Virus record (IMG/VR): IMGVR_UViG_3300031227_000371
Coordinates: 1-25,887 of that record
Length of the DNA: 25,887 nt
Source of the DNA: a virus
Reading direction: 5' to 3' (one strand)
The position numbers and the translations under genes are program-made. Below the pieces are notes generated by a model, which was given only the letters and a program-made list of their open reading frames with translations, was not told the DNA's origin and did no database searches. Position 1 is the first letter of the stretch. Each line of letters begins with the position of its first letter. Below are positions 144-23,799 of the stretch, in pieces.

Positions 144-1802
144 TTAGTAGATTGTTATGTTGCCGTATATTGAATTGTTACCGTAGATAGATATTCCTGT
201 TCCTGTGCAAGTTGGGGGGCAATAAGTCACACCAGAAACATATTCATCTGCTCCCATATCCCAAGGCGTGTATGTATCTCTGTTATCCCCGTCAATATCT
301 AGTACATAATCTGCACCTAAATCATCACCCTCGTCAACTGGTACGGCAGCGTCACTCGAAAGATGAAAATCTTCACTACTGGCTGTTACACTTACAAAAT
401 CCGTGTCCGAACAAGTAGTTAAAGAATTTGCACCTGTAGCTGTGGCATCTTCTGAACAATTATAATCGTTTGCTATAAAGTTCGCATCTGCGTCTGTGAA
501 ATCAAAATCTAAGTTATTCCCAACACAGACATTATTTTCATTATAAAGATTATTAGAATTTCTAATACTAAAATCTAGCCCAACACCATTATCGTATGAA
601 GTATTATTATAGACATAGACCGTCTGCGTTCCTACATTATCACCCATCCCAACATATATACCAATAAAATTGCCGTCATTCTTAAAATAATATACGATAT
701 TGTTATAAATATAATAACTAAAGGTCGCTGTTAACGGTTGACTAATCTTAATTCCTCTCCAATTATCAGTTCCAGATGAGAAGGAGCCGCCAGCTATATA
801 AGTGATGTTATTTTTAATTACAATAAACCCTGCTTGCACTCCTTGTATAGCAAAGCAGGAGTCATGATATTGGTTTCCGCTAATAACACCAATCACAAGA
901 CCGTCGATAGTTACATAACTATCTGACACATCAATACCACCTGTAATACTTGCGGAAGTTGTTGCACTTAACTTATATGCGGTAGCCTTATAAGCTGTAC
1001 CATCATGCCTTGCATCCCCAGAGGTATAAATATTTATATAATCATCAGAAGTTGTTGTGTAGTTATGGATAAATACTTTTGTTGTGTCGGGGCTTCCTGT
1101 CCAATCTCCTGAAATTTCTATATCAAACCAACCGTCTCCTGTCAAGTCTTGCTCGTTAGCATTCATGCAAGTTTCAAGAGCTGTATAATCCCCACCAGCA
1201 GGCTTTACTGTTTTATAAAGAAATTGCGCTGCAAAAGCATTTTTAGTCCAGTAATTATATGCTACGTTAATATATGGAGACACTCTGCTATAATAATATT
1301 TTAGATATGCAATTGGGCTTGTTGACGGTTTAATAACTTCATCTGCGCTTCCGTCTTTAATAGATAGATTACTCTCAGCTACAGCCTTGTTAACCTGTAT
1401 TGCATTGAGGCTTACTGTTTTAGCTAGCTCTACTTCATTCTTGTTAAACCGATGCTTACGTTTTCTTTTTAAATACACATCATCTGGATTATCTTCATTA
1501 ATAAATGGTTCTTCATACTTCTTAGCATCTTCATATTTTATATCTGGAACTTTAACAACTATATAATTCGGAAGCCCTTCCTCTTTCCCCCACTCCCAGC
1601 CGTCTGGACGAACAGCAATAACATCTCCTACCTGTGACCTTGCTTCATAAATACGCTTATCATTAACACTCATTTTATCTACTTGTTTCTGTGTAAACTC
1701 GTCTTTCCAATGAGGTTTAGCCTGAATTAACAACTCTGCCCCAAAAGAAGGCAACGCTATCAAACAAAAACATAATGTAAGTATTAGTCTATTTAAAAAC
1801 AT
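144..1802 (-). CDS. Beta-helix spike/adhesin with signal peptide
   Basis: The 552-residue product starts with a classic Sec signal: MFLNR, a hydrophobic core to about residue 18, then PSFGA before the mature start near residue 23. Residues about 25-200 form a charged N-terminal region. Residues about 205-450 look like a right-handed parallel beta-helix, with repeated short beta turns rich in Asn, Gly and Tyr (YIYNNI, VYVYNNTSYDNG, NNITYI). Near residue 520 is DMGADEY, an ending I associate with secreted pectate-lyase-like proteins. The C-terminus carries Cys and a repeated SIYGN-type motif. Such folds are used by phage tailspikes to bind or cut surface polysaccharide; no catalytic residues can be assigned. 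Its ATG overlaps the preceding fibre gene by 10 bases with only a weak ribosome site, so translation is probably coupled. A signal peptide is odd for a virion spike; it may instead be an exported adhesin. Confidence 0.7.
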   Translation of the reverse strand: MFLNRLILTLCFCLIALPSFGAELLIQAKPHWKDEFTQKQVDKMSVNDKRIYEARSQVGDVIAVRPDGWEWGKEEGLPNYIVVKVPDIKYEDAKKYEEPFINEDNPDDVYLKRKRKHRFNKNEVELAKTVSLNAIQVNKAVAESNLSIKDGSADEVIKPSTSPIAYLKYYYSRVSPYINVAYNYWTKNAFAAQFLYKTVKPAGGDYTALETCMNANEQDLTGDGWFDIEISGDWTGSPDTTKVFIHNYTTTSDDYINIYTSGDARHDGTAYKATAYKLSATTSASITGGIDVSDSYVTIDGLVIGVISGNQYHDSCFAIQGVQAGFIVIKNNITYIAGGSFSSGTDNWRGIKISQPLTATFSYYIYNNIVYYFKNDGNFIGIYVGMGDNVGTQTVYVYNNTSYDNGVGLDFSIRNSNNLYNENNVCVGNNLDFDFTDADANFIANDYNCSEDATATGANSLTTCSDTDFVSVTASSEDFHLSSDAAVPVDEGDDLGADYVLDIDGDNRDTYTPWDMGADEYVSGVTYCPPTCTGTGISIYGNNSIYGNITIY

Positions 1803-3430
1803 GATGAACTCGCAAAAGATATTCGTTTAGACGATACGGCATCAGGGCAGAAACACATGACATTATCCGTAGTGTTATAGAACAAGCTACCCTCGCCGTA
1901 CGTCACACAAGGATTAGCTGTCGCACCTGTACCAAAGGCAACAATAGAAGCCGTAGCACCTTCTGGATTAACGTGGACTCCACTTGAAGCCCGTAACGTA
2001 CTTGCCATTGCACCTGAGGTAAAAGTCTCAACCTCGTCTACTATAACCATAAATTCTTCTGCATCTGTGATAATTCTAAGTGAAGAACCTGTTGCTGCTT
2101 TTAACGTATCTACATTAGTAAGACTATTTCCATCAAGGTTAAAGTCTGCTGTCATTGGAACTGTACCATTGGCAAGTAAATCACCGCTACCACTACCGCC
2201 AGTATCATCTTCCCAATAGATAGAACCACTTGCCGAATCATATTTAGGAATCTCATTGTCTTCAGGAGTATCAACCGTAGCAACAACATAATTCTGTGCT
2301 GTTGAACCAAAAACTGACATCAACCCTTGCGTGATAATATCTGTATCAAAGCCAAACTTTCCTGTTACATCTGTCGTAGGTGCTGCTGCGTTAGGCATCT
2401 CCCAACTCGTCGCCTCGCCACCGTCAACGATACCGCCAAGCGTCGAACCTGTAACTGATATAGAAGTTACTACTGGAGAAGTCCCGAACAAAGCCAACCC
2501 TGTGCCCGATTCGTCAGATAAGGCTTCGTATAACCCTTGTGAGTTAGTAAGTGTTGATTGTTTACCGCTAAACTGAGTCTGTATCGCAGAAGTCACGCCC
2601 TTAACACGAGCAAGCTCTACAAGCGATGGATATGTCACAACCGCCAAAGTCTGTATGTAACCAGAACCATCAAGAGCAAGTATCTCTGAAACCGTTAAAT
2701 CGTCTAGGTGAATATTCCCACCCATAGTTGACCCTGTAACTGACATATCTGTGACTACTGGACTTGTCCCGAATAAAACTAACCCGCTTCCTGATTCATC
2801 ACTTAATGCTGAAGCTAATCCTGCCGAATTAGTAAGCGTTCCTTGTTTCGCATCTAAAAGAGTTGTAATTGAATCTGTTATTCCTTTAAGACGAGCAAGT
2901 TCCGTAAGCGAAGGATATGTCGCTACCGCTAAGGTCTGGACATAACCAGAAGCGTCAAGAGCTAATATCTCTGAAACCGTTAACTCATCAAAATAAATAT
3001 TCCCGCCCAGTGTAGAACCTGTAACGTCCACTGAAACAACAATAGGGCTTGTAAGCGTCCAGTCTGTTACAGTGACAACATCATTTATAGTTGCAGTAAC
3101 ATCGTCAGGACCACCTGCCCCACCGTCTGTTGATACAAAGGTTATTTCAGTGTTAGTGAGAAAGTTAGCTGTTGTATCTATATCAGTTCCATTCACAGTA
3201 ACAAGATCACCCGTCCCGCCTACTCCTCCCGTTAAATCAAGAGAAATCGAGCCGTCAGCGTTTGTTGTCATCTTGCCATTAGAAACTTTTATCGGGACTG
3301 GAAAGCATTGAGCAGGGCTTCCGTCTTCTTCCTCAAAGCAAAAAGGTGGACTTGTTGTCACTTGCGGGAAACATGGGGCTGCAATGCTAAGGAAAAATAA
3401 GAATAATATTATCTTACGAAAGTTCAACAA
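1793..3430 (-). CDS. Tail fibre-like protein with signal peptide and 95-residue repeats
   Basis: The 545-residue product begins at a TTG codon (3428-3430) placed five bases after the Shine-Dalgarno sequence GGAGGT; no ATG fits better. The N-terminus (Arg-Lys, then a hydrophobic run through about residue 18, then APCFPQ) reads as a Sec signal. The body is Ser/Thr/Gly-rich and low in Lys, typical of trimeric phage fibres. Residues 136-230 and 231-325 are two near-identical 95-residue repeats with a third partial copy after them. The C-terminus has a Cys-containing stretch (LFYNTTDNVMCFCP) like the tips of phage collar or fibre proteins. It overlaps the upstream 120-residue gene by 17 bases and the downstream spike by 10. 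Inferred role: receptor binding, either on the virion or, given the signal peptide, on the host surface. Confidence 0.7.
   Translation of the reverse strand: MLNFRKIILFLFFLSIAAPCFPQVTTSPPFCFEEEDGSPAQCFPVPIKVSNGKMTTNADGSISLDLTGGVGGTGDLVTVNGTDIDTTANFLTNTEITFVSTDGGAGGPDDVTATINDVVTVTDWTLTSPIVVSVDVTGSTLGGNIYFDELTVSEILALDASGYVQTLAVATYPSLTELARLKGITDSITTLLDAKQGTLTNSAGLASALSDESGSGLVLFGTSPVVTDMSVTGSTMGGNIHLDDLTVSEILALDGSGYIQTLAVVTYPSLVELARVKGVTSAIQTQFSGKQSTLTNSQGLYEALSDESGTGLALFGTSPVVTSISVTGSTLGGIVDGGEATSWEMPNAAAPTTDVTGKFGFDTDIITQGLMSVFGSTAQNYVVATVDTPEDNEIPKYDSASGSIYWEDDTGGSGSGDLLANGTVPMTADFNLDGNSLTNVDTLKAATGSSLRIITDAEEFMVIVDEVETFTSGAMASTLRASSGVHVNPEGATASIVAFGTGATANPCVTYGEGSLFYNTTDNVMCFCPDAVSSKRISFASSSCF
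2456..3025 (-). repeat. Two tandem 285-bp repeats inside the fibre gene
   Basis: Units lie at 2741-3025 and 2456-2740, exactly 285 bp (95 codons) each, in frame and abutting. A third unit starts at 2455 but diverges after about eight residues (VTGSTLGG). The proteins match at most positions (VTGST-GGNI, LTVSEILALD, LSDESG-GL-LFGTSPVVT) while the DNA has many silent differences. The duplication is therefore not recent and has been kept for protein structure. Confidence 0.9.
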
Positions 3431-3776
3431 TTCTGACCTCCGATGTATCTACACCGTCAGCGACAAGGTATATTGAAAATGTATCAGATACATTTGAAAA
3501 AACCTTGCCTTGACTTGGGAAAATTTTGACACCACTTGAAGATGTGACGCTAACACCACCATAATAAATATTCTTTGCACCGAAATTCTGAATCTCGATT
3601 GTTCGCTTTCCTGGCGTGATTGTTATTTCCTGCGCCGTTGAATCAACTGTGATCGCTGTCCTGTGCGATGCAACTCCGGCAGTATCTATCGGAATCATTC
3701 CTATTTTCTTGTCTGACCCGTCGCCTATTGCTGATTGATTCAATAAAGGCTCTACGCTTATATGATCTTTAGCCAT
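3414..3776 (-). CDS. Small beta-rich virion-type protein
   Basis: The 120-residue product has no signal peptide or membrane segment and is predicted mostly beta strand. It resembles a small domain I recognise from phage virion cassettes: Thr/Ala-rich opening (AITVDSTAQEITI), a strand around IEIQNFGAKNIYYGG, then VTSSSGVKIFPSQGKVF and a final strand ending in VRIVEL. In that family the domain is thought to decorate the tail or head or to join fibres; the exact role is not known to me. The ATG is preceded by GGGGGAATAAA, which includes the stop codon of the coiled-coil gene upstream. Its 3' end overlaps the fibre gene by 17 bases, so the two are likely coupled. Confidence 0.6.
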   Translation of the reverse strand: MAKDHISVEPLLNQSAIGDGSDKKIGMIPIDTAGVASHRTAITVDSTAQEITITPGKRTIEIQNFGAKNIYYGGVSVTSSSGVKIFPSQGKVFSNVSDTFSIYLVADGVDTSEVRIVELS

Positions 3777-3777
3777 T

Positions 3778-4425
3778 TTATTCCCCCTTCAATGATTCTT
3801 TCAAATTGTATCTTTTTATTAAGCGGTTGATTTCCTTGCGCTCAACCTGGATTTTAAGCTCTTGGTCATTAAGGTCGGCAGCTCTTTGTTCGTTCCTAGA
3901 CTCTTTAGAAAAAATGTCTTTCTGGCGTTCATTGTAAGATTTTTCTTTTCTCAGGTTTTCTTCTTTTTCTTTTTCAATCTTTTCATCATCCTGCTTTAAT
4001 GAATTTAATTTAAGTTCGTAATTATTCTTAGATTTGTTTGCCGCCGCCTTTTTTTCTTCGGCTTGTGAGCGAATATCTTTTGCCCTGATTAATTCAAGCC
4101 GTGAATTATCCAAATCATCATCAATTGATTTTCTTTTTCTCGCGGCCTCTTTGTTAAGTGAATCATAAAGCTTTGCTTTTTCGTTGTGATTGTTTTTTGC
4201 TTGCTCAAGATCCGTAATTCTTGAATCAATATTTTTCCTCTCTTCAGCCTTACGCACCCTAATATCAGATAACTCTTTTTCTCTCTGGCTGATAAGGTCT
4301 TGATACAAAAGCTCTTTTTGCTTTATGTCTGCGCGTATCTTTTCGATGTCTCCAAATGAGCTGAGAACCTGTCCTGCAAATTCTTCAATAATCGGAGTGA
4401 GCTTTTTCATTAATGCTTGTTTCAT
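3778..4425 (-). CDS. Coiled-coil protein B (215 aa)
   Basis: Residues about 25-205 are almost continuous heptad-like helix, very rich in Lys, Glu, Gln, Arg and Leu, with no Pro and no signal peptide or membrane segment. The first 25 residues (LTPIIEEFAGQVLSSFGDIEKI) align in layout with the neighbouring coiled-coil gene at 4518-5132 (LEPVIVNFEESLQSI), and both contain a YDSL motif and end in a Lys/Glu/Arg helix, so the two look like diverged paralogues. The ATG follows GGAAGGTGG by five bases. Placed between ejection proteins and fibre genes, it could be a rod or linker in the tail or an internal virion protein; that is inference from position. Coiled coils of this kind give poor sequence matches, so homology needs a profile search. 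Confidence 0.6.
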   Translation of the reverse strand: MKQALMKKLTPIIEEFAGQVLSSFGDIEKIRADIKQKELLYQDLISQREKELSDIRVRKAEERKNIDSRITDLEQAKNNHNEKAKLYDSLNKEAARKRKSIDDDLDNSRLELIRAKDIRSQAEEKKAAANKSKNNYELKLNSLKQDDEKIEKEKEENLRKEKSYNERQKDIFSKESRNEQRAADLNDQELKIQVERKEINRLIKRYNLKESLKGE

Positions 4426-4525
4426 ATTGCCACCTTCCTTGAGTTCTGATATTTCTCTTTGTTCCGTCCGGCTCAGACGCCCTGTTATTAAAAAAAGGCT
4501 CTAGGCTTTCGTCGTCTTTACCCAT
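4385..4525 (-). CDS. Possible 46-residue gene bridging the two coiled-coil genes
   Basis: A frame of 46 codons plus stop fills the 92-base gap between the coiled-coil genes, starting inside the last codons of the upstream one (8-base overlap) and ending 41 bases inside the downstream one. An AAGGAA sequence lies about nine bases before the ATG. The product (MGKDDESLEPFFNNRASEPD at the start) is hydrophilic with no recognised motif. Both overlaps are typical of coupled phage genes, but a short frame can arise by chance, so this is tentative. Confidence 0.35.
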   Translation of the reverse strand: MGKDDESLEPFFNNRASEPDGTKRNIRTQGRWQYETSINEKAHSDY

Positions 4526-5132: not shown

Positions 5133-5156
5133 TGGTAATCTCTCCTAAAAGTCGGT

Positions 5157-7025
5157 CTACGGATTTTTAACTGTAAATTCGGGCTCTCCAAATCTTCCCT
5201 TCGGGCCTAGCATTGGTCCAGTAACCCTTCTTGATGTGCCGAGGGGAGGGAGTTTTGTAGGATCAAGTCCTAACAATTTTTGCTGTGCTTGTGGAACTAT
5301 GATAACCTCGCCTGTGTTCTGATTCCTTAGCTTTATTGCGCTAGGGTCTGGCGATCTCCTATGGACTGGCTTATTTGGCAATGCCAACCTTTGCTTGAAT
5401 TGTAGGAATGCTTGATTAGATACAGGAATTTCTGCTTTCGGTAAAACCTCTGGCGTGACTGATGTGGGCGCAGCTTCATGTAATTTATTAACAGTTCTAA
5501 ACATATTTGCTATTTTAGTATTTTGATCATTTAATTGCTTAAATTTTGCAGCTATTCCTTTTTGTGCAATGCCCTGAACAACATCCCCAGGATTCAATGT
5601 GAGAATACCTCTTGCGATTTGGCCATTAGAGAAAATATCCGGTAGATCAAAAAATCCTTTTATGTTTTTCCTGCCATCGATAAGAACTCTTTTATTTATA
5701 TCCTTTTCTATTGATTTTAAAGCACCGAATTTATTCTTTAATATCTGAAATTCTCTTCCTGTTGTTTGCTCAACAGCGCTATCAAGAGATTTCCTTAAAA
5801 CATCAGTTGCTTTTGCTTCTACGCCTATTGCGTCAGCGTCAGAGAATGTTCTGTTTTTAAACCATGATTGTAGTCTAACATTCGCGCTAGCGATTGATTC
5901 ATTCGCCTCGGAGGGGGTTAGGTTCCCTTCAGCCTGTATTCTATCTGCAAGTTCGTTCATTTGTTTCGAGAGTGAGGGGTTTCTAGTTCTTAATGCTTTG
6001 CTATTGGCTGATTTTCTTATTGAGGTTGCGTAAGGTTTTACATCGACAACGGCTCCACTTTGTCCGGCCTGTTCTGCCAAATCGCTATATTGATTATACA
6101 TTAGCTTTCTAGTTTGCTCTGTAGCTTCAGCAAAATCAGATAAAGACTTGGGGACATCATTCCCGGAACTTAATTTCAAATTCCCTTTATTCTCAACAAT
6201 AGTTTTAACAGCATCCCGGGACTGTTCTTTAGATCGTTTTAATTGAGAAAAACTTGATTTTCCAGCTATGGATGGCTTAACGCCCTTGCTGATACCATCA
6301 TCAATAGCCTGGTCAACCCTAACCTGCCTTGCATTGAGTTTTCCGAACCGAGTTGATGGAGTTAGAAGCCCTAACCCTGCCTGGAACAATGCACCTTCTA
6401 CTCTTTCCCCTTCTTCGGCCGTAGCTGCCCCGGTAACTGCTCCGGCGGCTGCCGATCCGATTCTTTCAGCTCCTGGAATCTGTCTTGGGATTAGAGATGC
6501 TCCAAGCTTTTCAGCACCGCCTAAAATTATTCCTGCTGCGGCTCCTTTCGCTGCTGCTGGTAAAATAGGTTTTCTTTGTGCTGCTGCCTTTGTGCCTGAG
6601 AATAAACCTAAGCCTATTCCTGATTTTATAAGTCCGGGGACTTTTGGTATTAAAGAAGCTCCTTTCATAAACGGAGTTGCTGCTGCTACGCTTGGCAATA
6701 CCGTTCCGGCAACAGCTCCGGCTTTAGCTAATATTCCTTTCGGTTCCGGAGTCGCCAACATTGTTTGCTGGATTTCTTCTGCGTGTGGAAGCATACTAAC
6801 AACTCTTTTTCCAAAAGGAACATTCTCGAACAATCCTTTTGTGAATTGCGGAATAAACTTTTTCTCAAGCTGTTCTTTGGGAATATTGGATCCATCGATC
6901 TTTGCTCCCCTTACTTCTTCATCTGTAACGCCTTCGATATTAATATATTCGTCAATTTCTTGATCTGTAGCATTGAGCGAAATCATCTTAATCAAATTGC
7001 GTTTTATTTTTTTTATATCTGCCAT
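5157..7025 (-). CDS. Large ejection-type internal virion protein (622 aa)
   Basis: After a charged N-terminal 100 residues there is a Gly/Ala-rich hydrophobic region (about residues 98-210: AKAGAVAGTVLPSVAAATPF, GLIKSGIGLGLFSG, GAAAGIILGGAEKLGA, GSAAAGAVTGAATA), like the glycine-zipper segments of ejection proteins that insert into the host membrane. Residues about 230-500 are helical and charged. The C-terminal 100 residues are Pro-rich and contain EVIIVPQAQQ. Its ATG overlaps the stop of the preceding 401-residue gene (TAATG). In P22-type phages three ejection proteins follow the nozzle genes, and this block has the same order; I infer that it leaves the virion with the DNA and helps cross the envelope. 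No lytic transglycosylase motif is visible. Confidence 0.6.
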   Translation of the reverse strand: MADIKKIKRNLIKMISLNATDQEIDEYINIEGVTDEEVRGAKIDGSNIPKEQLEKKFIPQFTKGLFENVPFGKRVVSMLPHAEEIQQTMLATPEPKGILAKAGAVAGTVLPSVAAATPFMKGASLIPKVPGLIKSGIGLGLFSGTKAAAQRKPILPAAAKGAAAGIILGGAEKLGASLIPRQIPGAERIGSAAAGAVTGAATAEEGERVEGALFQAGLGLLTPSTRFGKLNARQVRVDQAIDDGISKGVKPSIAGKSSFSQLKRSKEQSRDAVKTIVENKGNLKLSSGNDVPKSLSDFAEATEQTRKLMYNQYSDLAEQAGQSGAVVDVKPYATSIRKSANSKALRTRNPSLSKQMNELADRIQAEGNLTPSEANESIASANVRLQSWFKNRTFSDADAIGVEAKATDVLRKSLDSAVEQTTGREFQILKNKFGALKSIEKDINKRVLIDGRKNIKGFFDLPDIFSNGQIARGILTLNPGDVVQGIAQKGIAAKFKQLNDQNTKIANMFRTVNKLHEAAPTSVTPEVLPKAEIPVSNQAFLQFKQRLALPNKPVHRRSPDPSAIKLRNQNTGEVIIVPQAQQKLLGLDPTKLPPLGTSRRVTGPMLGPKGRFGEPEFTVKNP

Positions 7026-8230
7026 TATTCAAGTCCGAATCTTTTTTTTAAGGAACCTTCCCTGTCCCCTCGTTCAAGAATAAACTCATCATACGGAGAA
7101 AGTGATTTTGCTAACAATAAATCCAAAGCATCCTGTTCGGCTTCAGACAATGTTATTGCTTTTGCCAATTTTTCAACTTTATCAGAAAAAGAGGCTAATT
7201 CTTCGTCAGGCACACTTTCTATAAATTCATTCGTTAATCCTAATCTATCTGCTGCTCTCGCAAAATTAAAAGCATTTGTAAGAGTTTTCCTCATCATATT
7301 CCTTGCATTTTTAGCTGGTGTTTTGCCACCCGGGAGCGTCATTTCTAATTTAGCGAAAATAGTTTGGACTAAACGAACTGAACCAGGCTTGTCTCCTTGT
7401 TGTGTCAATGTCGGCATTAAACGAGAAATAATTTCAGTTTTCAACCCCGGGAATGCTTCTGTTTCTTCGAACTGTTCAGCTTGCTCTCCACCAAAAAATA
7501 AAGAAGCCTTTCCTCGGAACTCATTCGCCAAGCTTCCTAGCCCACCTTCTTTTATAGCTGCAACATGAGTTTCAGCCAGCAATTTTGCTGAATTAGATAT
7601 CAAGTCAATTTGTTGCAAAGACATTCGCTGTGCTGTTATTGATTTCCCAACTGCCTCTATCCTGCCTTTTCTTATTAAATCTTGTTCTTTTTGGAACGAT
7701 TCAAAATCAGGATTCTTGACTGTTTTAAATTTTTCATTTCCAAATTTGTCCACGCCATCTGAAATTTGAATAAATTGTGCTGGCGTTTCTGTTCTCTCTT
7801 GCTGAATATCTGCAGAAGGTTCTATCCCAGCAGCAGTTCCGGGCTCTATTGCGCTCCCTGTGTCCTGTACTCCTGCTATGCCACCTAGGCCCTTCCTCTT
7901 TCTTTGAATTTCTTCAAGCTCAAGCTGAGATTTTTGCCTTGTTGGATCAATTGCATTTTTGAGCTGTTCGCGCTGTAAAAGGTCTTCGAGTCCAGTTCCG
8001 CCTTTTTTCTCTGGCTGTAAGCTCCTTGCTTGACTTAATGGCCTGCCCTGAGAAGCTAAAAGAGCCCCTTCCCCTGCCGCCAATAAAGCGCCCGTTGCTT
8101 GTTTTCCAAATCCTTGCTGTTTTGCGATGAGCCCTTGTTTCAAGGCTTCGAGCTCTTCATCGCTTAAATTTTCAAGTTGATTCTCCGGCGTAAATCCTCC
8201 GCCAGCTTTTGGTAAAAGTCTTTGAACCAT
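7025..8230 (-). CDS. Ejection-type internal virion protein (401 aa)
   Basis: The first 160 residues are low-complexity and rich in Gln, Gly and Glu with an Ala/Gly hydrophobic patch (ATGALLAAGEGALLAS). The second half is helical and contains the stretch TLTQQGDKPGSVRLVQTIFA followed by TLPGGKTPA, a pattern I associate with structural proteins of environmental podoviruses. No signal peptide is present. It sits between a 141-residue disordered protein and the 622-residue ejection-type protein, overlapping the latter as TAATG. It is inferred to be an internal head protein by position. The family name is uncertain. Confidence 0.5.
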   Translation of the reverse strand: MVQRLLPKAGGGFTPENQLENLSDEELEALKQGLIAKQQGFGKQATGALLAAGEGALLASQGRPLSQARSLQPEKKGGTGLEDLLQREQLKNAIDPTRQKSQLELEEIQRKRKGLGGIAGVQDTGSAIEPGTAAGIEPSADIQQERTETPAQFIQISDGVDKFGNEKFKTVKNPDFESFQKEQDLIRKGRIEAVGKSITAQRMSLQQIDLISNSAKLLAETHVAAIKEGGLGSLANEFRGKASLFFGGEQAEQFEETEAFPGLKTEIISRLMPTLTQQGDKPGSVRLVQTIFAKLEMTLPGGKTPAKNARNMMRKTLTNAFNFARAADRLGLTNEFIESVPDEELASFSDKVEKLAKAITLSEAEQDALDLLLAKSLSPYDEFILERGDREGSLKKRFGLE

Positions 8231-8241
8231 TTTGTCCTCCC

Positions 8242-8667
8242 TTATGAAAGAACCAACGGACTTGCCGATGATTTTTGTTGTTCAACAAAAGACTGCCTTA
8301 TCTGTTCTGGATTTTTTCCTCGCGCCGATTGACCTTTAACAAAATTATCAATAACGGTACTTCCAGAAGCTTTTCCACCGATTATGTCTTGGATTCCCTG
8401 AAGCTGAACATTAGTTGGTAAGTCAGCCACAAATCTCTGCTGTGTCCCCGCGAATTGCGGCAATGAACCGACTGTGCCTCTCTGCGGTCTTTGCGCGATT
8501 CTGGACGAAATCGGCGTTGTTGTTAGATTTCTTGCCGGAGCCCTATTGTTTCCCCCTGCAATCGACGGTAAAGGGCTACTGGCTTGAAGTGCTGCGGGTG
8601 TAGATACATTTCCCCCGCCTAATCTCTGTGTGCCTCTCTGGCTCAATTTATCGAGTAAAACTGCCAT
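8242..8667 (-). CDS. Disordered basic protein in the ejection block (141 aa)
   Basis: The product is rich in Gly, Ser, Gln, Pro and Arg (for example GNNRAPARNLTTTPISSRIA and QRPQRGTVGSLPQF) and looks intrinsically disordered up to about residue 85. A helical segment follows (VQLQGIQDIIGGKASGSTVI and EQIRQSFVEQQ). There is no signal peptide or membrane segment. It lies 11 bases upstream of the 401-residue ejection-type gene and 10 bases downstream of the 327-residue one, so it belongs to the same block. A small internal virion or chaperone-like partner of the ejection proteins is the best guess; I do not recognise the family. Confidence 0.5.
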   Translation of the reverse strand: MAVLLDKLSQRGTQRLGGGNVSTPAALQASSPLPSIAGGNNRAPARNLTTTPISSRIAQRPQRGTVGSLPQFAGTQQRFVADLPTNVQLQGIQDIIGGKASGSTVIDNFVKGQSARGKNPEQIRQSFVEQQKSSASPLVLS

Positions 8668-8677
8668 CTTATTCCTC

Positions 8678-9661
8678 CTAGTTTACAAACCCTAAATCTG
8701 GATTTAATAAAGAAGCAGATTTTACAGTTCTGCTTGAACTTGTTCCTATATTAACTAATGCGGCATTTCTTTTTTGTTGTTCGCTCCCTATTACATCAAG
8801 AAGGTCATCTGTTGACTTCTGCTGTGCTTGTTGAAAACTCATTCCGGCTGCCAATAATCCTGATGCCAAAATTTGAGAATTTAATAATTGCCCGGCTGCA
8901 ACCGTAGCGCCCTGGGCTTGTATTGTTTCGGCAATTGCAAATTCATTTGTTTTTATTGCGGATGCGTCTTCTCTCAGCGTATCAGCAATATTAAATTCTG
9001 CCCCTAATTTGAATTTCGCCTGGTTCTGCTGGCTTGCTGCTTCCTGTTCAGATAATTGCTGGAATCTTCCAACGGCCGTAGAAATCTGATTTTGACGCGC
9101 TAATTCAAGCTGTGCGACTCTTTCGGCAATATCTCGCTCTGCTGCTTGAGAAGCTTGAGTGCCTTGGGCAGTCGCAACAGTTGAACGGCCTAATCCTCGC
9201 GCCGATGCCATCGAAGCCAATCCCGCCTGAGTTTGTTGTAACCCGGCTCTTACCTGTTCAGCAACAGGAGCCGTTTGCGCGCTAACATCAATTAATCCGC
9301 GGCCTGCAATTCTATCTTCAAGAGTTCCCTTTATTTGCTGGCCTGTTTCTGTTTCAAGAAAAGTGGGAAAATTAATCTTTGCGGCGGCTTCCTGCTTCAT
9401 TCTTAACGCTTCTTGCCTTCTAAGTTCTTCTTCAGCGGCAGCTTTTTGTTGCGCTTCGACTTGTCTTTGTTGGGCCTGCGCCGCTGTTTCAGAAGCTTTT
9501 CTTGCTCCGCTAGAAGAAATTGCTGCGGCTCCTAATCCGGCTGCTCCAGCTATCACCGAACTACCAATGATTGCTGCCGTTGTGCCAATAATTCCTCTCT
9601 CATTAGAAAGATAGGCGCTCAATGGTCTGATTCTGGAAAAATATTCTTTAATTTTTATCAT
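8678..9661 (-). CDS. Ejection-type protein with N-terminal hydrophobic segment (327 aa)
   Basis: A basic start (MIKIKEYFSRIR) leads into a Gly/Ala/Ile-rich hydrophobic stretch at about residues 24-50 (GIIGTTAAIIGSSVIAGAAG), then an Ala/Gln/Glu coiled-coil region (about 55-95) and a long Gln/Ala-rich helical body to residue 300. This composition is that of phage internal virion proteins that are expelled into the envelope. The hydrophobic segment is not at the extreme N-terminus and lacks a clear cleavage site, so I read it as a membrane-insertion segment. It is the first of four ejection-type genes, matching the place of the gp7-like protein in P22-type genomes. The role is inferred. Confidence 0.6.
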   Translation of the reverse strand: MIKIKEYFSRIRPLSAYLSNERGIIGTTAAIIGSSVIAGAAGLGAAAISSSGARKASETAAQAQQRQVEAQQKAAAEEELRRQEALRMKQEAAAKINFPTFLETETGQQIKGTLEDRIAGRGLIDVSAQTAPVAEQVRAGLQQTQAGLASMASARGLGRSTVATAQGTQASQAAERDIAERVAQLELARQNQISTAVGRFQQLSEQEAASQQNQAKFKLGAEFNIADTLREDASAIKTNEFAIAETIQAQGATVAAGQLLNSQILASGLLAAGMSFQQAQQKSTDDLLDVIGSEQQKRNAALVNIGTSSSRTVKSASLLNPDLGFVN

Positions 9662-9670
9662 TCCAATCTC

Positions 9671-10114
9671 CTATTTAATATAATCTCGTTGCAATAATTT
9701 ATAATTTCGTTTCTTGTAATATTTGTCTAAAATGTCTGTGTTTAAATTTCCCATAAGCCCAACAACAACCAATTCTGCCCCTCTTGATTTACATTCGTTT
9801 TCAAATTCTTTGATAAGTTTTAATCCTATCGTCCCATGCCTGTAATTCATACCAACATACCAAACAGATTCTTGTCCTATCATTTGACTTTCATCGAATA
9901 TTGAAGGACTTATAACTCCCGCCACAAACCCTGCTATACTTCCCGCATCTTCTGCAACAATAACCACAAGCTTTGTTATATACAATATTGCTGTTTTCCG
10001 TATGGTTTCATCATTTATCCTAAAGCCATAATCATTCACGCTTTCTTCAAAAAATCCTTTTATTAAAACAATCAAATCATCAATATCTTTTAATTCGCCC
10101 TTTCTAATTATCAC
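9671..10114 (-). CDS. GNAT-family N-acetyltransferase (147 aa)
   Basis: The 147-residue length is typical of a single GNAT domain. The core strand plus pyrophosphate-binding loop is at about residues 84-107 (VWYVGMNYRHGTIGLKLIKEFE), a slightly degenerate form of the usual R/Q-x-x-G-x-G/A signature, followed by the helix-strand pair around GAELVVVGL and a C-terminal YYKKRNYKLL typical of the fold's end. It would transfer an acetyl group from acetyl-CoA to an unknown amine. The start is GTG, overlapping the stop of the 73-residue gene as GTGA. Acetyltransferases are often found among tail genes of environmental podoviruses; whether the target is a virion protein, a host protein or a sugar is unknown. 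Confidence 0.75.
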   Translation of the reverse strand: MIIRKGELKDIDDLIVLIKGFFEESVNDYGFRINDETIRKTAILYITKLVVIVAEDAGSIAGFVAGVISPSIFDESQMIGQESVWYVGMNYRHGTIGLKLIKEFENECKSRGAELVVVGLMGNLNTDILDKYYKKRNYKLLQRDYIK

Positions 10115-10332: not shown

Positions 10333-10333
10333 A

Positions 10334-11803
10334 TTAGGACTCGTTTAATTTGTAGAGAATTATTTCACCAGTTGTGTTCTGGCTTGTAAGTATCTGGAAA
10401 TCTGCGACTGTTGCACTATTGTCCCACCACCCAAGAATGTTATTTTGTTCAACATGTACGCTTCCGTCTATATATGTTACTTCTCCAGAAACAGACATCT
10501 GGTCTGTCCAAACGGTATCCATAATAAATCTACCGTTAGCCCAACCTTTTTCATTTAATGTTCCAATCGTTGCTATAGCTATTGATGTATTCGTTGTTAT
10601 TGTAGAACCAGAAGCCCCCGCATACGTGCTTCCATCATCATCATTAAACCTGAGAGTTAATGTCGAATCAGAGGTTTCGTTGGATTTGATAGTAAACACA
10701 ACTAAATATCTTACGTCGGGAACAATAACTACATCATCAGAATCCGTAGTATCTGTCCAGGATGTCCTTGAAACAAATTCCATCCCTTCAGTAAAAGCTG
10801 TCCAAGTAGGATTTACGCCAGCCCCGGCAGAAGTTAACAGCTCTCCCGCTGTCCCCTGGTCTCCAAGGCCGTTAGCATCGTCAGAGGCATCATTTACGAT
10901 TAACTCTCCGGTGGCCGTTGTCGTGCCAATATTAACACCATCCATTGACCCGCCGTTGATGTCCGTTGTAGTAAGGGTTGAAGCGTCAGCGTTAAGCGTA
11001 TCGACCTCAGCCGTTCCGTCAATATATGCGTTTCTATATTCTTTCGACGCGCTTCCTAGGTCAAGGTTGTCATCTGTTCCAGGCTCTAGCTTTATATATG
11101 TCGCATCAACGGCCTGTAACGTCATAGCCTCTGCAGCAGCGCCTAAAGTCGTATCACCAAGATCAAAACGAATAATGTCTTCGTCATCGCTTTCTTGGGT
11201 TTGAATCATCGTATCTGCATCTGTATCCGCAATCGAAGAAGCTGAACCGATTGCAACCGTGATCGATGTCACGCGGTCGTCCCTAACTTCTAAAACCGTT
11301 GTCGTGTCGGTTGAAATCCTGGAAAGCCTTATTGAATTAGTTGCGACCGAAGGTTCACTCGCATCGACCGCTGTTTCTTGATATGTGTATGTCCCGTTAC
11401 TCGATAAATCAACAAAAGTCCATTTTGAAGCTGTGTATGTGTTTGCCGTAGGATCCTTGACGACTCTCGTCCCATTAACATACGATATTCCTGAGGCCGT
11501 TGTGCTTGACAAGCTTGCGCTCGTTGGTGTCGTTAGCCCTGTATAAACAAAATCGCTGAAAGCTTCATTCCATCTATTCTCTGGGTTTGCGTTGGCGTCA
11601 AGTTTCGCTGCTGTCACTGTCCCCGTCTGCAAAAGGCCGCCGTCCCCGGAGTTTATTGCGTCAGTCAATACCTTCCTGTTCGACTCTAAATTATCGACAG
11701 TTACATCATCTGCCGTATTATACGAAGTTGTCGTAATCGAAGCACCTGCCCTGCCTCCCAAAAGACCAAGCAAAACGAATAAAGTCAACAATATTCTTTT
11801 CAT
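10334..11803 (-). CDS. Tail fibre-like protein with signal peptide (489 aa)
   Basis: The N-terminus is a textbook Sec signal: MKR, a Leu-rich core, then GGRAGA with cleavage expected before SITTT at about residue 22. The body is Thr/Ser/Asp/Ala-rich and almost free of Lys, typical of extended beta fibres, with fibre-type motifs such as DLGSASKEYRNAYIDGTAEV (about 245-265) and a hinge ELLTSAGAGVNPTWT (about 315-330). Residues about 335-489 look like a compact beta-sandwich tip. It directly follows the nozzle gene, where podoviruses often carry the fibre that attaches to the tail. The signal peptide is unexpected for a virion fibre; if functional the protein would leave the cytoplasm. It may be a fibre, an exported adhesin, or a fibre whose hydrophobic start anchors it in the virion. 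Confidence 0.7.
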   Translation of the reverse strand: MKRILLTLFVLLGLLGGRAGASITTTSYNTADDVTVDNLESNRKVLTDAINSGDGGLLQTGTVTAAKLDANANPENRWNEAFSDFVYTGLTTPTSASLSSTTASGISYVNGTRVVKDPTANTYTASKWTFVDLSSNGTYTYQETAVDASEPSVATNSIRLSRISTDTTTVLEVRDDRVTSITVAIGSASSIADTDADTMIQTQESDDEDIIRFDLGDTTLGAAAEAMTLQAVDATYIKLEPGTDDNLDLGSASKEYRNAYIDGTAEVDTLNADASTLTTTDINGGSMDGVNIGTTTATGELIVNDASDDANGLGDQGTAGELLTSAGAGVNPTWTAFTEGMEFVSRTSWTDTTDSDDVVIVPDVRYLVVFTIKSNETSDSTLTLRFNDDDGSTYAGASGSTITTNTSIAIATIGTLNEKGWANGRFIMDTVWTDQMSVSGEVTYIDGSVHVEQNNILGWWDNSATVADFQILTSQNTTGEIILYKLNES

Positions 11804-11805
11804 AT

Positions 11806-13323
11806 TTAAGCTCCTATTTTAGTCCCTTTGGACTTTTGTTTTACTGTGAAATCAACTCCGATTCCAACAAGATCAGCTTTCAAGTCAAGCGTTTCTTCAA
11901 TAATCTCAAAGGCGATGCTCTCTCCCCTTGAATATTTTATCTTTGGCTTGACTCTGCCGGATGCCTGCGCTTGGTTTTTTATCTCAATCATTCCGAGTGT
12001 TTTTGTTTCTCCGCGTAAAAGCTCTGTCCAGTCTGCGCCTGATCCTGTCGGATTAGATGACCGCCCATCGAGTATATAAAGAATATTGATATTCCGTATT
12101 CCTGTCGGCATGAACTCAAGATAGAAAGCATCGAATCTTACGTTCCATCCCTTCTTAAGAACTAAATCTCTTGACCTCACTCTTGAGGGGATCGCAACTC
12201 CATTAAAATTAGCGCCCCTGTTGTCCCGAACGATTGTGTTTGAATCAGATTTTCCCATTTCCATATATTCATTTTCAATCGTTGAGTCCGTAGACATATA
12301 ATAAGAAACATTTCTTGATCGCACAATATCAATTTTATTTTCAAACGCATCCCACCATATCTCAAGATTGTTTTCCCCAGAAGAACCTTTTTCAACAAAC
12401 GAGAGCTTGTAATAATTCTCATGATAAACGGCAACGGCTCTTTCGACTTTATCCGAATATGTATTAATAAAATCTTTTAGCTTAAATTCAAAACTTAGCA
12501 TTTGAGAGTTAAGGCCATCCCAGGACCAAAGCTCGTAATCATCCGCTAAGAATACGATTGCCTGCTCTACACCAACAGCAGAACGCCCAGCAATAATCTT
12601 GCGATCTTCAACAAGGCGAACCTCAAACGTCGTGGCAAGAGCGCTGATAACGTCACCGTCGAGGACGAAGATTCCCTCAGTTGTAAAAATATACAACTTA
12701 TCTTCTATCTTTCCCAGGGCGAGATTTATTCCTTTCCCGGATCCAACAATTATTTGGATGCTATCGTTAGCGTCGTCAAATACTTTTGGCTCTAAATTCT
12801 TTGAAATAAAAAGGCTCGTTTTTGATATTACCATTAAACGATCTTTATGCTCAATCAAATCTATCGGCAGGACAGAATCACCATCAGAATTGACAAGAGT
12901 CACCGGAAGAAATGTGTTGTCATTGTTCCCGTCATGGCTATAAAGTCCAACACCATCCACAAAGAAAAGATTGTTCTGGAATCCTGTTTTGAAGAGGACG
13001 TGCTTAGGGTAAGCGTTTTCGTTAAGAAGATTTTTTACTTCCGTTGACGTCCCTTCCTGATCATCTAAAACATGAATCTTCCCGTCTACGGTATAAACAA
13101 ACGTCTTAGGAGAAATAACGCTACTCTCGACCGTGTTATATCTTCCGCCCCATCGTGCTACTGCAGGAATATCCGTTACAACGGCCTCATGCCCTTGCGG
13201 TTTACTTAATCTCCCGTCCCTTGCAAGCCAGTTTTCGCGCAGGACGGGAGAAGTCGGATCACCTTCGTCTTGGGGACTGCGCCTATCTATTTTTCCTGTG
13301 AATTTAACGAAAAAATCTGCCAT
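11806..13323 (-). CDS. Tail nozzle / DNA-stabilisation protein, beta-propeller-like (505 aa)
   Basis: The product opens with FVKFTGKIDRRSPQDEGDPT and continues through many short beta repeats of the form VDGKIHVLDD, NLFFVDGVGLYSHDG, DRLMVISKTSLFISK, KLYIFTTEGIFVLDGD and AIVFLADDYELWSWDG (residues about 70-275), which read as blades of a propeller. Similar architecture occurs in the nozzle proteins of short-tailed phages (P22 gp10, T7 gp12). The C-terminal 120 residues form another beta domain. It follows the adaptor gene with only the Wzy-like gene between them, as expected for adaptor-nozzle pairs. It has no signal peptide. It would close the head-tail channel and form the short tail. The fold call is from pattern, not alignment. 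Confidence 0.65.
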   Translation of the reverse strand: MADFFVKFTGKIDRRSPQDEGDPTSPVLRENWLARDGRLSKPQGHEAVVTDIPAVARWGGRYNTVESSVISPKTFVYTVDGKIHVLDDQEGTSTEVKNLLNENAYPKHVLFKTGFQNNLFFVDGVGLYSHDGNNDNTFLPVTLVNSDGDSVLPIDLIEHKDRLMVISKTSLFISKNLEPKVFDDANDSIQIIVGSGKGINLALGKIEDKLYIFTTEGIFVLDGDVISALATTFEVRLVEDRKIIAGRSAVGVEQAIVFLADDYELWSWDGLNSQMLSFEFKLKDFINTYSDKVERAVAVYHENYYKLSFVEKGSSGENNLEIWWDAFENKIDIVRSRNVSYYMSTDSTIENEYMEMGKSDSNTIVRDNRGANFNGVAIPSRVRSRDLVLKKGWNVRFDAFYLEFMPTGIRNINILYILDGRSSNPTGSGADWTELLRGETKTLGMIEIKNQAQASGRVKPKIKYSRGESIAFEIIEETLDLKADLVGIGVDFTVKQKSKGTKIGA

Positions 13324-13331
13324 TTTTCACC

Positions 13332-14483
13332 TTAGCTTGTTGATACTTCGAATAACGCAAAGGCCGGGATAATAAAACAGGCCATCCGCGCTAAAAATAT
13401 TGGGAAATGTCCCATGCTTATAATCAAAAATACCAATAAAAAACCCGCCAAGGCTATGGTGTTGACATTTTTTATCGACTTTTTGAATCGTACCACGCCT
13501 TGACGAATATATGCGATGAAAAGGAATAATCCGACATATCCGAACTCATACGCCAACGAAATATATAAATTGTGCGTGTTGTCCCACCAACTTATCTTCG
13601 TAATGTCGTTATACTTCTTCCCTTTTGTTGTTACATGCGTATCGTATTTCTCAACAGAAGCGTAATATCTAAAGTTTTTTTGTGGAGTTACGTTAGCAAA
13701 AGAATCAAGTCCCCATCCCGTCACCGGATGAATTGTAGAATCATTCAATATTCTTTTCCACATCCCGAATCTTTCAACTCCGAATCCGTCTACCTTCTTG
13801 ACATAAAAAGTCCCGCACACAATCGATGATATTAACACTAAAATCCATATTTTACGCGGAATCCTGAAAAACAGGATAAATAACAGGCCAACGAGCCCAG
13901 CAATAAAGCATAAAGACGTTTTGCATAGGTATAGCGGAAAGAAAAGGCCTATTGCCCCTACCATGGCCCACTTTGAGCCCCTTGACGCAAGCATGGGTAT
14001 CGCCAGCGCTATCAGAGTACCTAAAATAGAGGCATGCCCCATGAATCCGTTCATCCTGGTATTTTCAACATGCTCAACAATTACCCGGGAAATGATTTCT
14101 TTATGCACAAAGTCAAAACCAACGGACTGAACCACCATAAATGCCACATTAACGAACACAAACCAAAGAAATGCGTTCACAAACAAATCAATATTTTGCC
14201 TTTTGAATGAAGATTTTGTCACAAAATAAAGAATTGAGCCGAAGAATATATTTGATAGGTATATTGAACCTGTCTCAAACTTGAAAAATGAATATAAGAA
14301 AACAGTCCAGCAAAGAAATAGCGTAGCCCAAATATTCCTGAGCACTAAGCTAAACATCGAAATCATGCCTAACATGAAGATCATTTGGTTAGCCTGCCGC
14401 ATATCGGTAATCCCATGCAGAGAAACAACCGCTAAAAAAATCAGCGAAACAACCCCAACTCTGATAATTTTCTTCATATCCAT
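13332..14483 (-). CDS. O-antigen polymerase/ligase-like membrane protein (Wzy_C type)
   Basis: The 383-residue product has about ten to twelve hydrophobic helices spread over its length except one large hydrophilic loop at about residues 230-305. That loop carries the signature of the O-antigen ligase/polymerase family: R238 and W242 in ERFGMWKRIL, HPVTGWG at 252-258, and HNLYISLAYEFG with HN at 304-305 and E313. A second family feature, the R-x-NGF-x-GH loop (R143 to H150), precedes the middle helices. These enzymes work on the periplasmic face of the inner membrane, joining undecaprenyl-linked glycan units or moving glycan to lipid A or protein. Polymerase and ligase cannot be told apart by sequence alone. 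The ATG overlaps the adaptor stop (TAATG) and the nozzle starts 8 bases after its stop, so it is co-expressed with virion genes. It probably alters the host surface glycan, for receptor masking or superinfection exclusion (inference). Confidence 0.8.
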   Translation of the reverse strand: MDMKKIIRVGVVSLIFLAVVSLHGITDMRQANQMIFMLGMISMFSLVLRNIWATLFLCWTVFLYSFFKFETGSIYLSNIFFGSILYFVTKSSFKRQNIDLFVNAFLWFVFVNVAFMVVQSVGFDFVHKEIISRVIVEHVENTRMNGFMGHASILGTLIALAIPMLASRGSKWAMVGAIGLFFPLYLCKTSLCFIAGLVGLLFILFFRIPRKIWILVLISSIVCGTFYVKKVDGFGVERFGMWKRILNDSTIHPVTGWGLDSFANVTPQKNFRYYASVEKYDTHVTTKGKKYNDITKISWWDNTHNLYISLAYEFGYVGLFLFIAYIRQGVVRFKKSIKNVNTIALAGFLLVFLIISMGHFPIFLARMACFIIPAFALFEVSTS

Positions 14484-15175
14484 TATGTAACATCCTTTCT
14501 TGGCGCGAAGAATGGAACCCCTTCTCGCCTGGATTGAGTTTGTTGGTTTGTTCCGATATTCCTTGCAGCACCAACGATGAGATCATGCACTGCGGTCTTG
14601 AGGTCATCCTTAGCGTCCCGTATTCCTACTGCATTTTTGCTATCCATCCATTGACGTAACTTAACCATTGCAAAATTAATGATAATCTCATCATATTTGT
14701 CTTCATAAGGAATCGTGCCGCCTGCAACCAATTTCGTGACGAGCTTGATATAATCAAGATAAAGCGTAATAACGCCGGATGGAGTTGGGCCAAGATAAAT
14801 CCGGTTAGCGAAAAACGCGGCTACGTCCGGGGCTTGTGAACTGCTTGCCGATGGATCAGGAAATCTGTCTCTATACTCAGCAAATGGGATTATCATGATA
14901 GGCGAATCGTTTGTTCGTTCTGAAAGCTTGATGTTTTGGTCGAGGTCAGGCGTATCCGTTCCGATCTCAATATATTCCTGGTCAGTCACAGTAGAAAACG
15001 TATCATGTGCACCGATTTCATCGAACAGCTCCGCATCCATAAACCATTGCTTCATTCGCTTAATGGCAAGATTAATAGCAACCAAAATCAAAGCGTTAAG
15101 GTCCGTATCTACAATATCGTAATCTGCTAATTTCTTTATATCACCAATTACATCATTTACGGCTGATTTACTCAT
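14483..15175 (-). CDS. Head-tail adaptor/connector protein (230 aa)
   Basis: The mostly helical 230-residue product has an N-terminal helix bundle (residues 1-50), a beta insertion with RIYLGPTPSGVITLYLDYIK (about 126-146), then IPYEDKYDEIIINFAMVKLR (about 153-172). That order, a P-x-P beta hairpin followed by a Y-x-D-x-I helix, is characteristic of head-completion adaptors that dock under the portal (P22 gp4/T7 gp11/gp6-like class). It overlaps the small exported gene upstream by 8 bases and the Wzy-like gene downstream as TAATG. It would connect portal and nozzle. The start at 15175 follows AAGGGAAAG. Confidence 0.7.
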   Translation of the reverse strand: MSKSAVNDVIGDIKKLADYDIVDTDLNALILVAINLAIKRMKQWFMDAELFDEIGAHDTFSTVTDQEYIEIGTDTPDLDQNIKLSERTNDSPIMIIPFAEYRDRFPDPSASSSQAPDVAAFFANRIYLGPTPSGVITLYLDYIKLVTKLVAGGTIPYEDKYDEIIINFAMVKLRQWMDSKNAVGIRDAKDDLKTAVHDLIVGAARNIGTNQQTQSRREGVPFFAPRKDVT

Positions 15176-15470
15176 GGCTTTCCCTTTTTTCTCGTTCTAT
15201 TTTAAAAACGATTTTCTGAATAATGTCAAAATCTTCCTGCGTTACTGATTGATAAGTGAAAAGAACAAATTCGGATCCATTGTTTACGATATAGCCCCAA
15301 GATTCGTTGCTTCGCTCTCCTGAAGTTAAGTCGAGCTTTCTTCCTGTCTTCGCAAATTCTTCCTTGAGCTCTTTAGGCCAGCATGAAATCGGGATTCGCA
15401 ATTCATCCGCAAAGGCCATCCCGGATAAAACAAAAATTAATGCCAACGATATAAAAAATATTTTTTTCAT
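15168..15470 (-). CDS. Small exported protein (100 aa) with signal peptide
   Basis: The N-terminus is a near-ideal Sec signal: MKK, a hydrophobic core, and GMAFA with cleavage before DELRIP at about residue 22. The mature part is about 79 residues, with a Cys-Trp-Pro near its start, a central SNESWGYIVNNGSEFVLFTY and a charged helix at the end. I do not recognise it. No Shine-Dalgarno sequence lies in the usual place; the AGGAGG is 38 bases upstream, separated from the ATG by a 15-bp hairpin (see the regulatory entry), so initiation may depend on that fold. It lies between two virion genes and its end overlaps the adaptor by 8 bases. A periplasmic or surface role during late infection is inferred. 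Confidence 0.7.
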   Translation of the reverse strand: MKKIFFISLALIFVLSGMAFADELRIPISCWPKELKEEFAKTGRKLDLTSGERSNESWGYIVNNGSEFVLFTYQSVTQEDFDIIQKIVFKIEREKRESHE

Positions 15471-15514
15471 TCAAATTACGGGGCAGAGTATTAACTCCGC
15501 CCCATAATCCTCCT
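15471..15514 (-). promoter_or_regulatory. Hairpin that brings a distant Shine-Dalgarno sequence to its start codon
   Basis: In the minus-strand RNA, AGGAGG (15509-15514) is followed at once by a hairpin (15475-15508) and then UUGA and the AUG at 15470. The stem has four pairs (AUUA/UAAU), a U-G, five pairs (GGGGC/GCCCC), a G-U, four pairs (GAGU/ACUC) and a UAAU loop: 15 continuous pairs. On the plus strand the two wobbles would be C-A mismatches, so the fold suits the minus-strand RNA. Folding shortens the gap from 38 to about 4 bases, as known for phage T4 gene 38. No U-run follows, so it is not a terminator. A 4-codon mini-frame (ATG at 15503-15505) lies inside. Confidence 0.65.
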
Positions 15515-15523
15515 TTCATTTCT

Positions 15524-16105
15524 TTAGTCCAGCGTTAAAAAGCACTCTACATCTTCTTGTGCTGCTGCTGAAGTATCATAAAAGAATCCAGCAACGCCCT
15601 GAGCTCTTGGATCAGTCACGCTACCGATATGAGAAGTCGCCTCACCTGCTGTAGTTGACGTTCCCATTGCTTCACCGGCAACGTTGAGAATCAAGAGATT
15701 ATCAACCTGACTCAAACCATACGTCTGAAGCCATGTCCAGTTGTCCTTGCCTCTGTCTTCAATCGCTGTATTGTCTTCTGTGTCTTGAGTCAACGCTGCA
15801 GTGACAATAATACCAGCAACCGAGCTGTCAGATGATGTTGTCGTTGTTGTAACAGTTACGCCGTCATCTTCCGTCAAATTCCAGATTACAATGGAATCTG
15901 CAGCAAGAGTTGCCGCGCCTTCAAAGTCCGCCTGAACATATCGAACCATGCGGAAGATTTTATGGGCATCAGATTGATTCTTTTTCTGGCCCAAAATATC
16001 CCCAGCTCCCGGACTTTGACGATATCCGGGTGTAGCGGCTGCCGCTAACCCTACCATCATAAGAAGGGCAACGGAAAGAATTGAAACTAATCTTAATTTC
16101 TTCAT
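15524..16105 (-). CDS. Post-capsid exported/decoration-like protein with signal peptide (193 aa)
   Basis: The N-terminus (MKKLR, hydrophobic core, VGLAAAA) is a clear Sec signal with cleavage near residue 23-24 before TPGYRQ. The mature part is Ala/Thr/Asp-rich and beta-prone (DSIVIWNLTEDDGVTVTTTT, VAGIIVTAALTQDT, NLLILNVAGEAMGT, QGVAGFFYDTSA), similar in feel to head decoration proteins or to small beta domains attached to capsids. It lies immediately after the capsid gene, the standard site for a decoration gene. Start: ATG at 16105 after GGGGGACAGG. If it truly decorates heads, the signal is a puzzle, because heads assemble in the cytoplasm; if the signal works, the protein is periplasmic or surface-bound. 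I cannot decide from sequence. Confidence 0.65.
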   Translation of the reverse strand: MKKLRLVSILSVALLMMVGLAAAATPGYRQSPGAGDILGQKKNQSDAHKIFRMVRYVQADFEGAATLAADSIVIWNLTEDDGVTVTTTTTSSDSSVAGIIVTAALTQDTEDNTAIEDRGKDNWTWLQTYGLSQVDNLLILNVAGEAMGTSTTAGEATSHIGSVTDPRAQGVAGFFYDTSAAAQEDVECFLTLD

Positions 16106-23740: not shown

Positions 23741-23768
23741 TGTGATTCTCCTTTGTAACGGTTGATCT

Positions 23769-23799
23769 ATATTAAATGCCCGAGGCATATTATTTTCAA
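23769..23799 (-). promoter_or_regulatory. Possible weak promoter before the 77-residue gene
   Basis: On the minus strand TTGAAA (23794-23799) is followed after 19 bases by TAATAT (23769-23774). Between them is a perfect inverted repeat ATGCC-TCG-GGCAT (23776-23788), which might be an operator. The spacer is longer than ideal, so this is weak. Confidence 0.25.

Follow-up and report, generated by a model that had tools for sequence, protein, structure and literature searches.

Conserved signal peptides on fibre and head-associated proteins in a lineage of podovirus-type tailed phages

Assembly of tailed phages is understood to take place entirely in the host cytoplasm. A 25.9 kb IMG/VR virus contig (IMGVR_UViG_3300031227_000371, 25,887 nucleotides, analysed at full length and referred to here as the window) raises the question of why some proteins encoded in the virion cassette of such a phage should begin with export signals. 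Terminase, portal, Mx8-related capsid, adaptor and nozzle genes follow one another in order on its minus strand, placing the virus among podovirus-type tailed phages with an Mx8-like capsid, and no tail-tube, tape-measure or sheath genes were recognised among the cassette proteins tested, several of which have no assignment (Table 1). A sequence-only reading had described five genes of this cassette as starting with Sec-type signal peptides, and all five were confirmed on the minus strand, with the N-termini it gave. The absence of a signal peptide has been used as an argument for the phage origin of fibre-like variable proteins (PMC6199706).

Table 1. Features of the virion cassette and predicted signal peptides (SP) in the window.
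Feature	Position	Strand	Remarks
Small terminase	22629-23207	-	
Large terminase	21278-22708	-	No SP (terminase orthologs 0/10)
Portal	19184-21046	-	No SP (orthologs 0/9)
Scaffold-like protein	17230-18264	-	Label by position and composition; no SP (orthologs 0/9)
Major capsid protein	16117-17214	-	No SP (orthologs 0/9); distant relative of Mx8 major head protein
P1	15524-16105	-	Directly after major capsid gene
SP of P1	16034-16105	-	MKKLRLVSILSVALLMMVGLAAAA, then TPGYR after the cleavage site; score 22.3
P2	15168-15470	-	Next gene after P1
SP of P2	15408-15470	-	MKKIFFISLALIFVLSGMAFA, then DELRI after the cleavage site; score 22.0
Head-tail adaptor	14483-15175	-	No SP (orthologs 0/7)
Wzy_C polytopic protein	13332-14483	-	Between adaptor and nozzle genes
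Tail nozzle/hub candidate	11806-13323	-	Label by position and composition; no SP (orthologs 0/7)
F1 fibre	10334-11803	-	Directly after nozzle gene
SP of F1	11741-11803	-	MKRILLTLFVLLGLLGGRAGA, then SITTT; AGGAG ribosome-binding site upstream; score 19.0
Internal-type proteins	5157-9661	-	Label by position and composition
Two coiled coils		-	Part of the same cassette as the terminal fibre/spike genes
F2 (terminal fibre/spike gene)	1793-3430	-	Repetitive fibre; EEDGSP domain after SP
SP of F2	3380-3430	-	MLNFRKIILFLFFLSIAAPCFPQ; TTG start; score 13.8; poorly defined cleavage site, weakest of the five
144 gene (terminal fibre/spike gene)	144-1802	-	Spike candidate, 552 aa; repetitive, beta-helix-like by eye
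SP of 144 gene	1740-1802	-	MFLNRLILTLCFCLIALPSFG, then AELLI; score 14.5; 4/2000 shuffles

Signal peptides were scored with a purpose-written log-odds model of the n-, h- and c-regions, calibrated on the mal, fim and nan loci of Escherichia coli, where known exported proteins score 10-22, soluble cytoplasmic proteins score at most 9.5, and the known cleavage sites of fimA, malE, lamB and malM are recovered. Because membrane proteins may also score high (MalG, 20), a call additionally demands that no transmembrane segment follows. Five of the 25 cassette genes pass, exactly those singled out before, each with a strong Sec/signal peptidase I-type signal made up of a basic n-region, a hydrophobic h-region, small residues at -3 and -1 and no later transmembrane segment; the sole other window gene above 12 is a polytopic Wzy_C protein (12.1). 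The two cleavage sites named by the sequence-only reading, GMAFA before DEL and GGRAGA before SIT, are also the best predicted sites. When the N-terminal 35 residues of each gene product were shuffled 2000 times, the observed score was reached 0-4 times.

To place these calls in context, eight related IMG/VR contigs of uncultured viruses (G001-G008) were gathered by capsid, P1, fibre and portal searches and all proteins were clustered. Signal peptides are found in all 11 copies of P1 (nine phages), in all seven F1 orthologs, in all four F2-type large fibres and in eight of nine P2 orthologs, the ninth (L033:53-439) having a signal-like segment behind a long n-region. None occurs among 57 sequences of the capsid (0/9), scaffold (0/9), portal (0/9), terminase (0/10), adaptor (0/7), nozzle (0/7) and coiled-coil (0/6) groups, nor among the orthologs of a 73-aa protein (0/7) and a 120-aa protein (0/4). 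The earlier observation that portal, capsid, adaptor, nozzle and coiled coils lack a signal thus holds in the window and in all relatives. A Fisher test of the split by ortholog gives p = 1.5e-24, a value that is overstated since the rows are related sequences treated as independent, and ortholog counts are not independent events. Shine-Dalgarno-like sites lie upstream of the signal-peptide start in 34 of 53 genes. Several phages have extra signal-bearing genes in the fibre region, and one (G008) has at least seven signal-like genes in its head and fibre region. Another (G007) encodes a fibre-like gene lacking a signal (L031:7231-8979), so export is not needed for every fibre. Counting a distant member described below, the predicted signals are a fixed property of a phage lineage, carried by a conserved set of fibre and head-associated proteins in ten phages. 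Their conservation by ortholog in nine phages beyond the window, together with the shuffles, bears out the earlier claim that five signals in one cassette are not chance.

The comparison establishes that predicted cleavable-type signal peptides mark P1, P2, F1 and the large fibres and are absent from the core particle proteins. Signals of this type route proteins into the Sec pathway and are cleaved off by signal peptidase I, and export of the signal-bearing proteins is, on the predictions, well supported. We hypothesize, giving the whole about an even chance, that a subset of Sec pre-proteins (P1, P2, F1 and the large fibres and spikes) is exported, matured and joined to the particle outside the cytoplasm at lysis, with the Wzy_C protein acting in the periplasm. 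Host Sec and signal peptidase I would export and mature these proteins late in infection, while heads and the tail hub would form in the cytoplasm in the normal way. P1, the fibres and the spikes, once exported, might then join DNA-filled heads last, outside the cytoplasm, once lysis opens the inner membrane; the holin holes of some phages are wide enough for virions to pass. This late extracytoplasmic step is what we infer from the pattern, and we know of no tailed phage to which parts are added late from the periplasm. Export of adhesins to the periplasm had been put forward by the sequence-only reading, and it is the best of that reading's proposals.

Several of the signal-bearing proteins resemble known virion proteins. 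Stretches of F1 match tail fibres of Pelagibacter and Roseobacter phages (41-62% over short stretches), a partial homology, and F2 has a repeat in common with a protein of Rhodobacteraceae phage LS06-2018-MD05 labelled 'virion structural protein', the window's F2 being linked to fibres by this repeat only. Among the relatives the link to tail fibres and spikes runs through PHROG 4636, a tail-spike family matched by large signal-bearing F2-related proteins in L008 and G008 (9e-19 and 9e-10), and a signal-bearing protein matches the virion structural PHROG 6002 (5e-22). Evidence is therefore good, by homology, that the large fibres are probably virion proteins. The product of the 144 gene gave no database match. 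Regions of F1 and F2 also match phage proteins lacking a signal (the Pelagibacter/Roseobacter tail fibres, UOF78005.1 and the Rhodobacteraceae phage virion structural protein), and therefore the signals here sit on ordinary phage fibre modules. A need for disulfides or oxidative folding is not evident as a reason for export, cysteine being only slightly commoner in the exported proteins (0.76 vs 0.56 per 100 aa).

The Wzy_C gene bears on where such proteins might act. Its product matches PF04932 (E 1.7e-12; 47.8 bits against a gathering cut-off of 31.7) and has the several hydrophobic segments and the WDNxHN motif, with a conserved His in a loop, of the Wzy_C/O-antigen ligase superfamily; no NCBIfam subfamily and no PDB profile hit was obtained, with a PglL/PilO-type protein O-glycosyltransferase among the possibilities considered. 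In each of the seven family contigs that cover the region, and in G010 (L149:7892-9070), the gene is flanked by the adaptor and nozzle genes; it was not found in the examined regions of Mx8, BUCT555 and ppBjS10J-1. Members of the superfamily act on lipid-linked glycans at the periplasmic side of the membrane, so its substrate there could be a glycan of the host surface or the exported proteins themselves. Related phage genes are known: VarioGold p25 likewise has a Wzy_C domain in a polytopic membrane protein (PMC9658991), and a phage-acquired Wzy of this family (Wzy-beta) alters the O-antigen of Pseudomonas aeruginosa (PMC4815439). The VarioGold gene differs in lying outside the virion cassette, in a moron-like segment of opposite orientation (PMC9658991), whereas the window gene is co-oriented inside it. 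An extended form of our hypothesis, in which the Wzy_C protein, encoded in the same operon, would glycosylate the Sec-exported fibres, spikes and head-associated protein in the periplasm before their addition at lysis, making for two-compartment assembly and glycosylated adhesins, strikes us as improbable.

The same gene lends weight to a different account, in which the signal-bearing proteins are exported yet are not virion parts and serve instead in or on the envelope of the infected cell, for example by shielding receptors from superinfecting phages or by capturing receptor debris, with the Wzy_C protein altering the surface glycan. Export signals and a Wzy_C gene in one cassette agree with such a role, as do the O-antigen change in P. 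aeruginosa (PMC4815439) and the occurrence of VarioGold p25 (PMC9658991). We nevertheless regard it as unlikely: most of these phages have no fibre candidates other than F1 and the large fibres, signal-bearing proteins match tail-spike and virion PHROGs, and P1, P2 and F1 hold fixed places inside the structural gene order.

P1 and P2 show how the signals evolve. Across P1 orthologs the basic start, the hydrophobicity and the small residues at -3 and -1 persist, with an AxA-type site in ten aligned copies, while mean pairwise identity is 26% in the h-region vs 49% in the mature part; in P2, the Asp at +1 after the site is invariant in eight orthologs. On these alignments, it is signal-peptide function rather than its letters that appears to be selected. 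P1 occurs as tandem duplicates in two phages, both copies with a signal (L007:6127-6711 and 6769-7359; L033:488-1078 and 1124-1717). Its mature part is beta-rich and its location is that of a head decoration protein; no match was found in Pfam, PHROG or PDB, and an AlphaFold model with ten homologs reached a pLDDT of 41 and was left out of the fold comparison. P1 holds the place of Mx8 p49, annotated 'major virion structural protein', and counts as a virion protein by position only. P1 shares position and, by eye, a similar pattern with p49, but no sequence homology between them was detected (hhalign probability 0.2%, no significant hmmsearch score); homology to the protein after the capsid was likewise undetected in BUCT555 and ppBjS10J-1. 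P2, of 100 aa, is modelled by AlphaFold (mean pLDDT 87) as a separate N-terminal helix, a low-confidence linker and a compact alpha/beta domain, for which Foldseek gave nothing significant in PDB or viral models and no relative was found.

These details also weigh on the proposal, made by the sequence-only reading, that the hydrophobic segments anchor proteins in the particle, tail parts or heads being built at the inner membrane or carrying a lipid-interacting peptide. The P2 N-terminus, modelled as a free helix joined by its linker to the folded domain, would suit an anchor, and some c-regions are poor, as in the gene at 1793. We consider retention of the segments rather doubtful, since a drifting h-region beside conserved small -3 and -1 residues and a fixed +1 residue is the mark of a cleaved signal, and by topology the folded domain would lie outside the cytoplasm either way.

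The strongest argument is that phages as distant as the window and G010 (L073/L149) share an identical pattern of predicted signals. G010 has 58% GC and a terminase 23% identical to that of the window, yet its gene order is the same, and signals occur on its P1, P2, F2 and F1 and on two further fibre-region genes and are absent from its portal, scaffold, capsid, adaptor and nozzle. Profile comparison shows its capsid, P1, P2, Wzy_C protein and F1 to be homologous to those of the family. It carries an integrase and so may be temperate. A scan for the EEDGSP domain, which follows the signal in F2, covered 41 non-redundant proteins with a visible start and found a signal in four, one of them from G010, the rest lacking one and having the domain mostly in the interior. 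Two further contigs (G009 and G011) belong to different phages, with signals on single fibre-like or small structural-region genes, and export of fibre-like proteins may thus have arisen more than once. In G009, a signal-bearing EEDGSP fibre with a laminin-G domain adjoins a signal-bearing GDSL esterase (L151:171-935, L151:944-3097). G011 has one signal-bearing fibre and, in addition, two small genes flanking a capsid-like region with signal-like starts scoring 11.2 and 12.7 (L153:10872-11378, L153:12698-13093).

Such depth leaves little room for a recent capture of host adhesin genes with their signals, or for the acquisition of fibre-like host adhesins raised in the sequence-only reading. 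Repeats of the fibre type are frequent in proteins that bacteria secrete. WceF of Pantoea stewartii shows that a bacterial enzyme can combine a tailspike fold with an export signal, although that signal is of the Tat type and the protein serves the bacterium's own exopolysaccharide and no phage part (PMC7949094). We think recent capture very unlikely, because the same orthologs stand in the same order in deeply diverged phages and their fibre domains are shared with phage fibres lacking signals. Searches for the host itself gave little: capsid patterns of the close family found no relative in 84,980 species genomes; the single hit to the Wzy_C protein was a weak one (29%) in an Actinomycetota MAG; and no tRNAs were found as a host clue.

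Comparison with known phages delimits the pattern. No convincing signal peptide was found on virion genes of HTVC033P, ctMlz233, ctf1B273, T7, P22, Mx8, BUCT555 or ppBjS10J-1; a glycine-rich N-terminus in BUCT555 (L155:16135) scores 12.3 and is likely a false positive. The nearest of these by capsid are the Mx8-like podoviruses (Myxococcus Mx8, Stenotrophomonas BUCT555 and Bradyrhizobium ppBjS10J-1), which have a homologous major capsid protein (98% profile probability for Mx8, with all three found by the G010 capsid) and a similar order of terminase, portal, scaffold, capsid, small protein, adaptor, nozzle, internal proteins and fibres, and which differ in having neither signals on virion genes nor, in the examined regions, a Wzy_C gene. 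Pelagibacter and Roseobacter podoviruses (HTVC033P, CRP-13) share the gene order, a terminase of about 35% identity and the fibre stretches matched by F1, but the structural cassette of HTVC033P lacks signals. Virion proteins with cleaved signal peptides are familiar from filamentous phages (M13 pIII and pVIII), which assemble from the membrane and periplasmic side; these differ in having single-stranded DNA, membrane extrusion without lysis, and no tailed-phage capsid, portal or terminase. The earlier description of the signals as rare is right for the cultured controls but has to be qualified, as at least three other, unrelated viral contigs likewise encode signal-bearing fibres. That a home-made scorer merely labelled ordinary hydrophobic N-termini as signals is scarcely credible: it does wrongly pick out some membrane and glycine-rich proteins (MalG, L155:16135), but it finds the correct known sites in E. 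coli, and the shuffles and conservation across orthologs, against zero in core genes, speak against an artefact.

Signals kept over deep divergence on fibre and head-associated orthologs would mean that some tailed phages use host export for structural parts, and the pattern points to production of some of the particle's parts outside the host cytoplasm, against the accepted course of tailed-phage assembly. If this is true, it raises the questions of where adhesins are added, how they fold or are modified in the periplasm, and whether an envelope stage gates infectivity. The open-access literature yielded no account of signal peptides occurring systematically on structural proteins of tailed phages, which is no proof of novelty. 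For annotation pipelines, the presence of a signal peptide is no ground to exclude a virion protein.

Other features of these genomes deserve mention. A GNAT acetyltransferase gene lies in the tail region of the window (9671-10114), and BUCT555, ppBjS10J-1 and ctMlz233 have one similarly placed after the nozzle gene. Adjoining the terminase genes, positions 23507-23788 encode a 93-aa protein whose start (KRG-AVETIIIVGVV) resembles a prepilin-type or small membrane protein. Further along, a gene that by eye is DNA cytosine methyltransferase-like (24797-25630; SGAGLGDLGW and PCQPFS motifs) stands beside an HNH-like gene (24446-24760). The large terminase of one relative (G006, L033:7701-9815) is apparently split by an intein-like insertion (CLEGRTKVFLSDGSTKRIDCIETGDIV ... 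VANCD).
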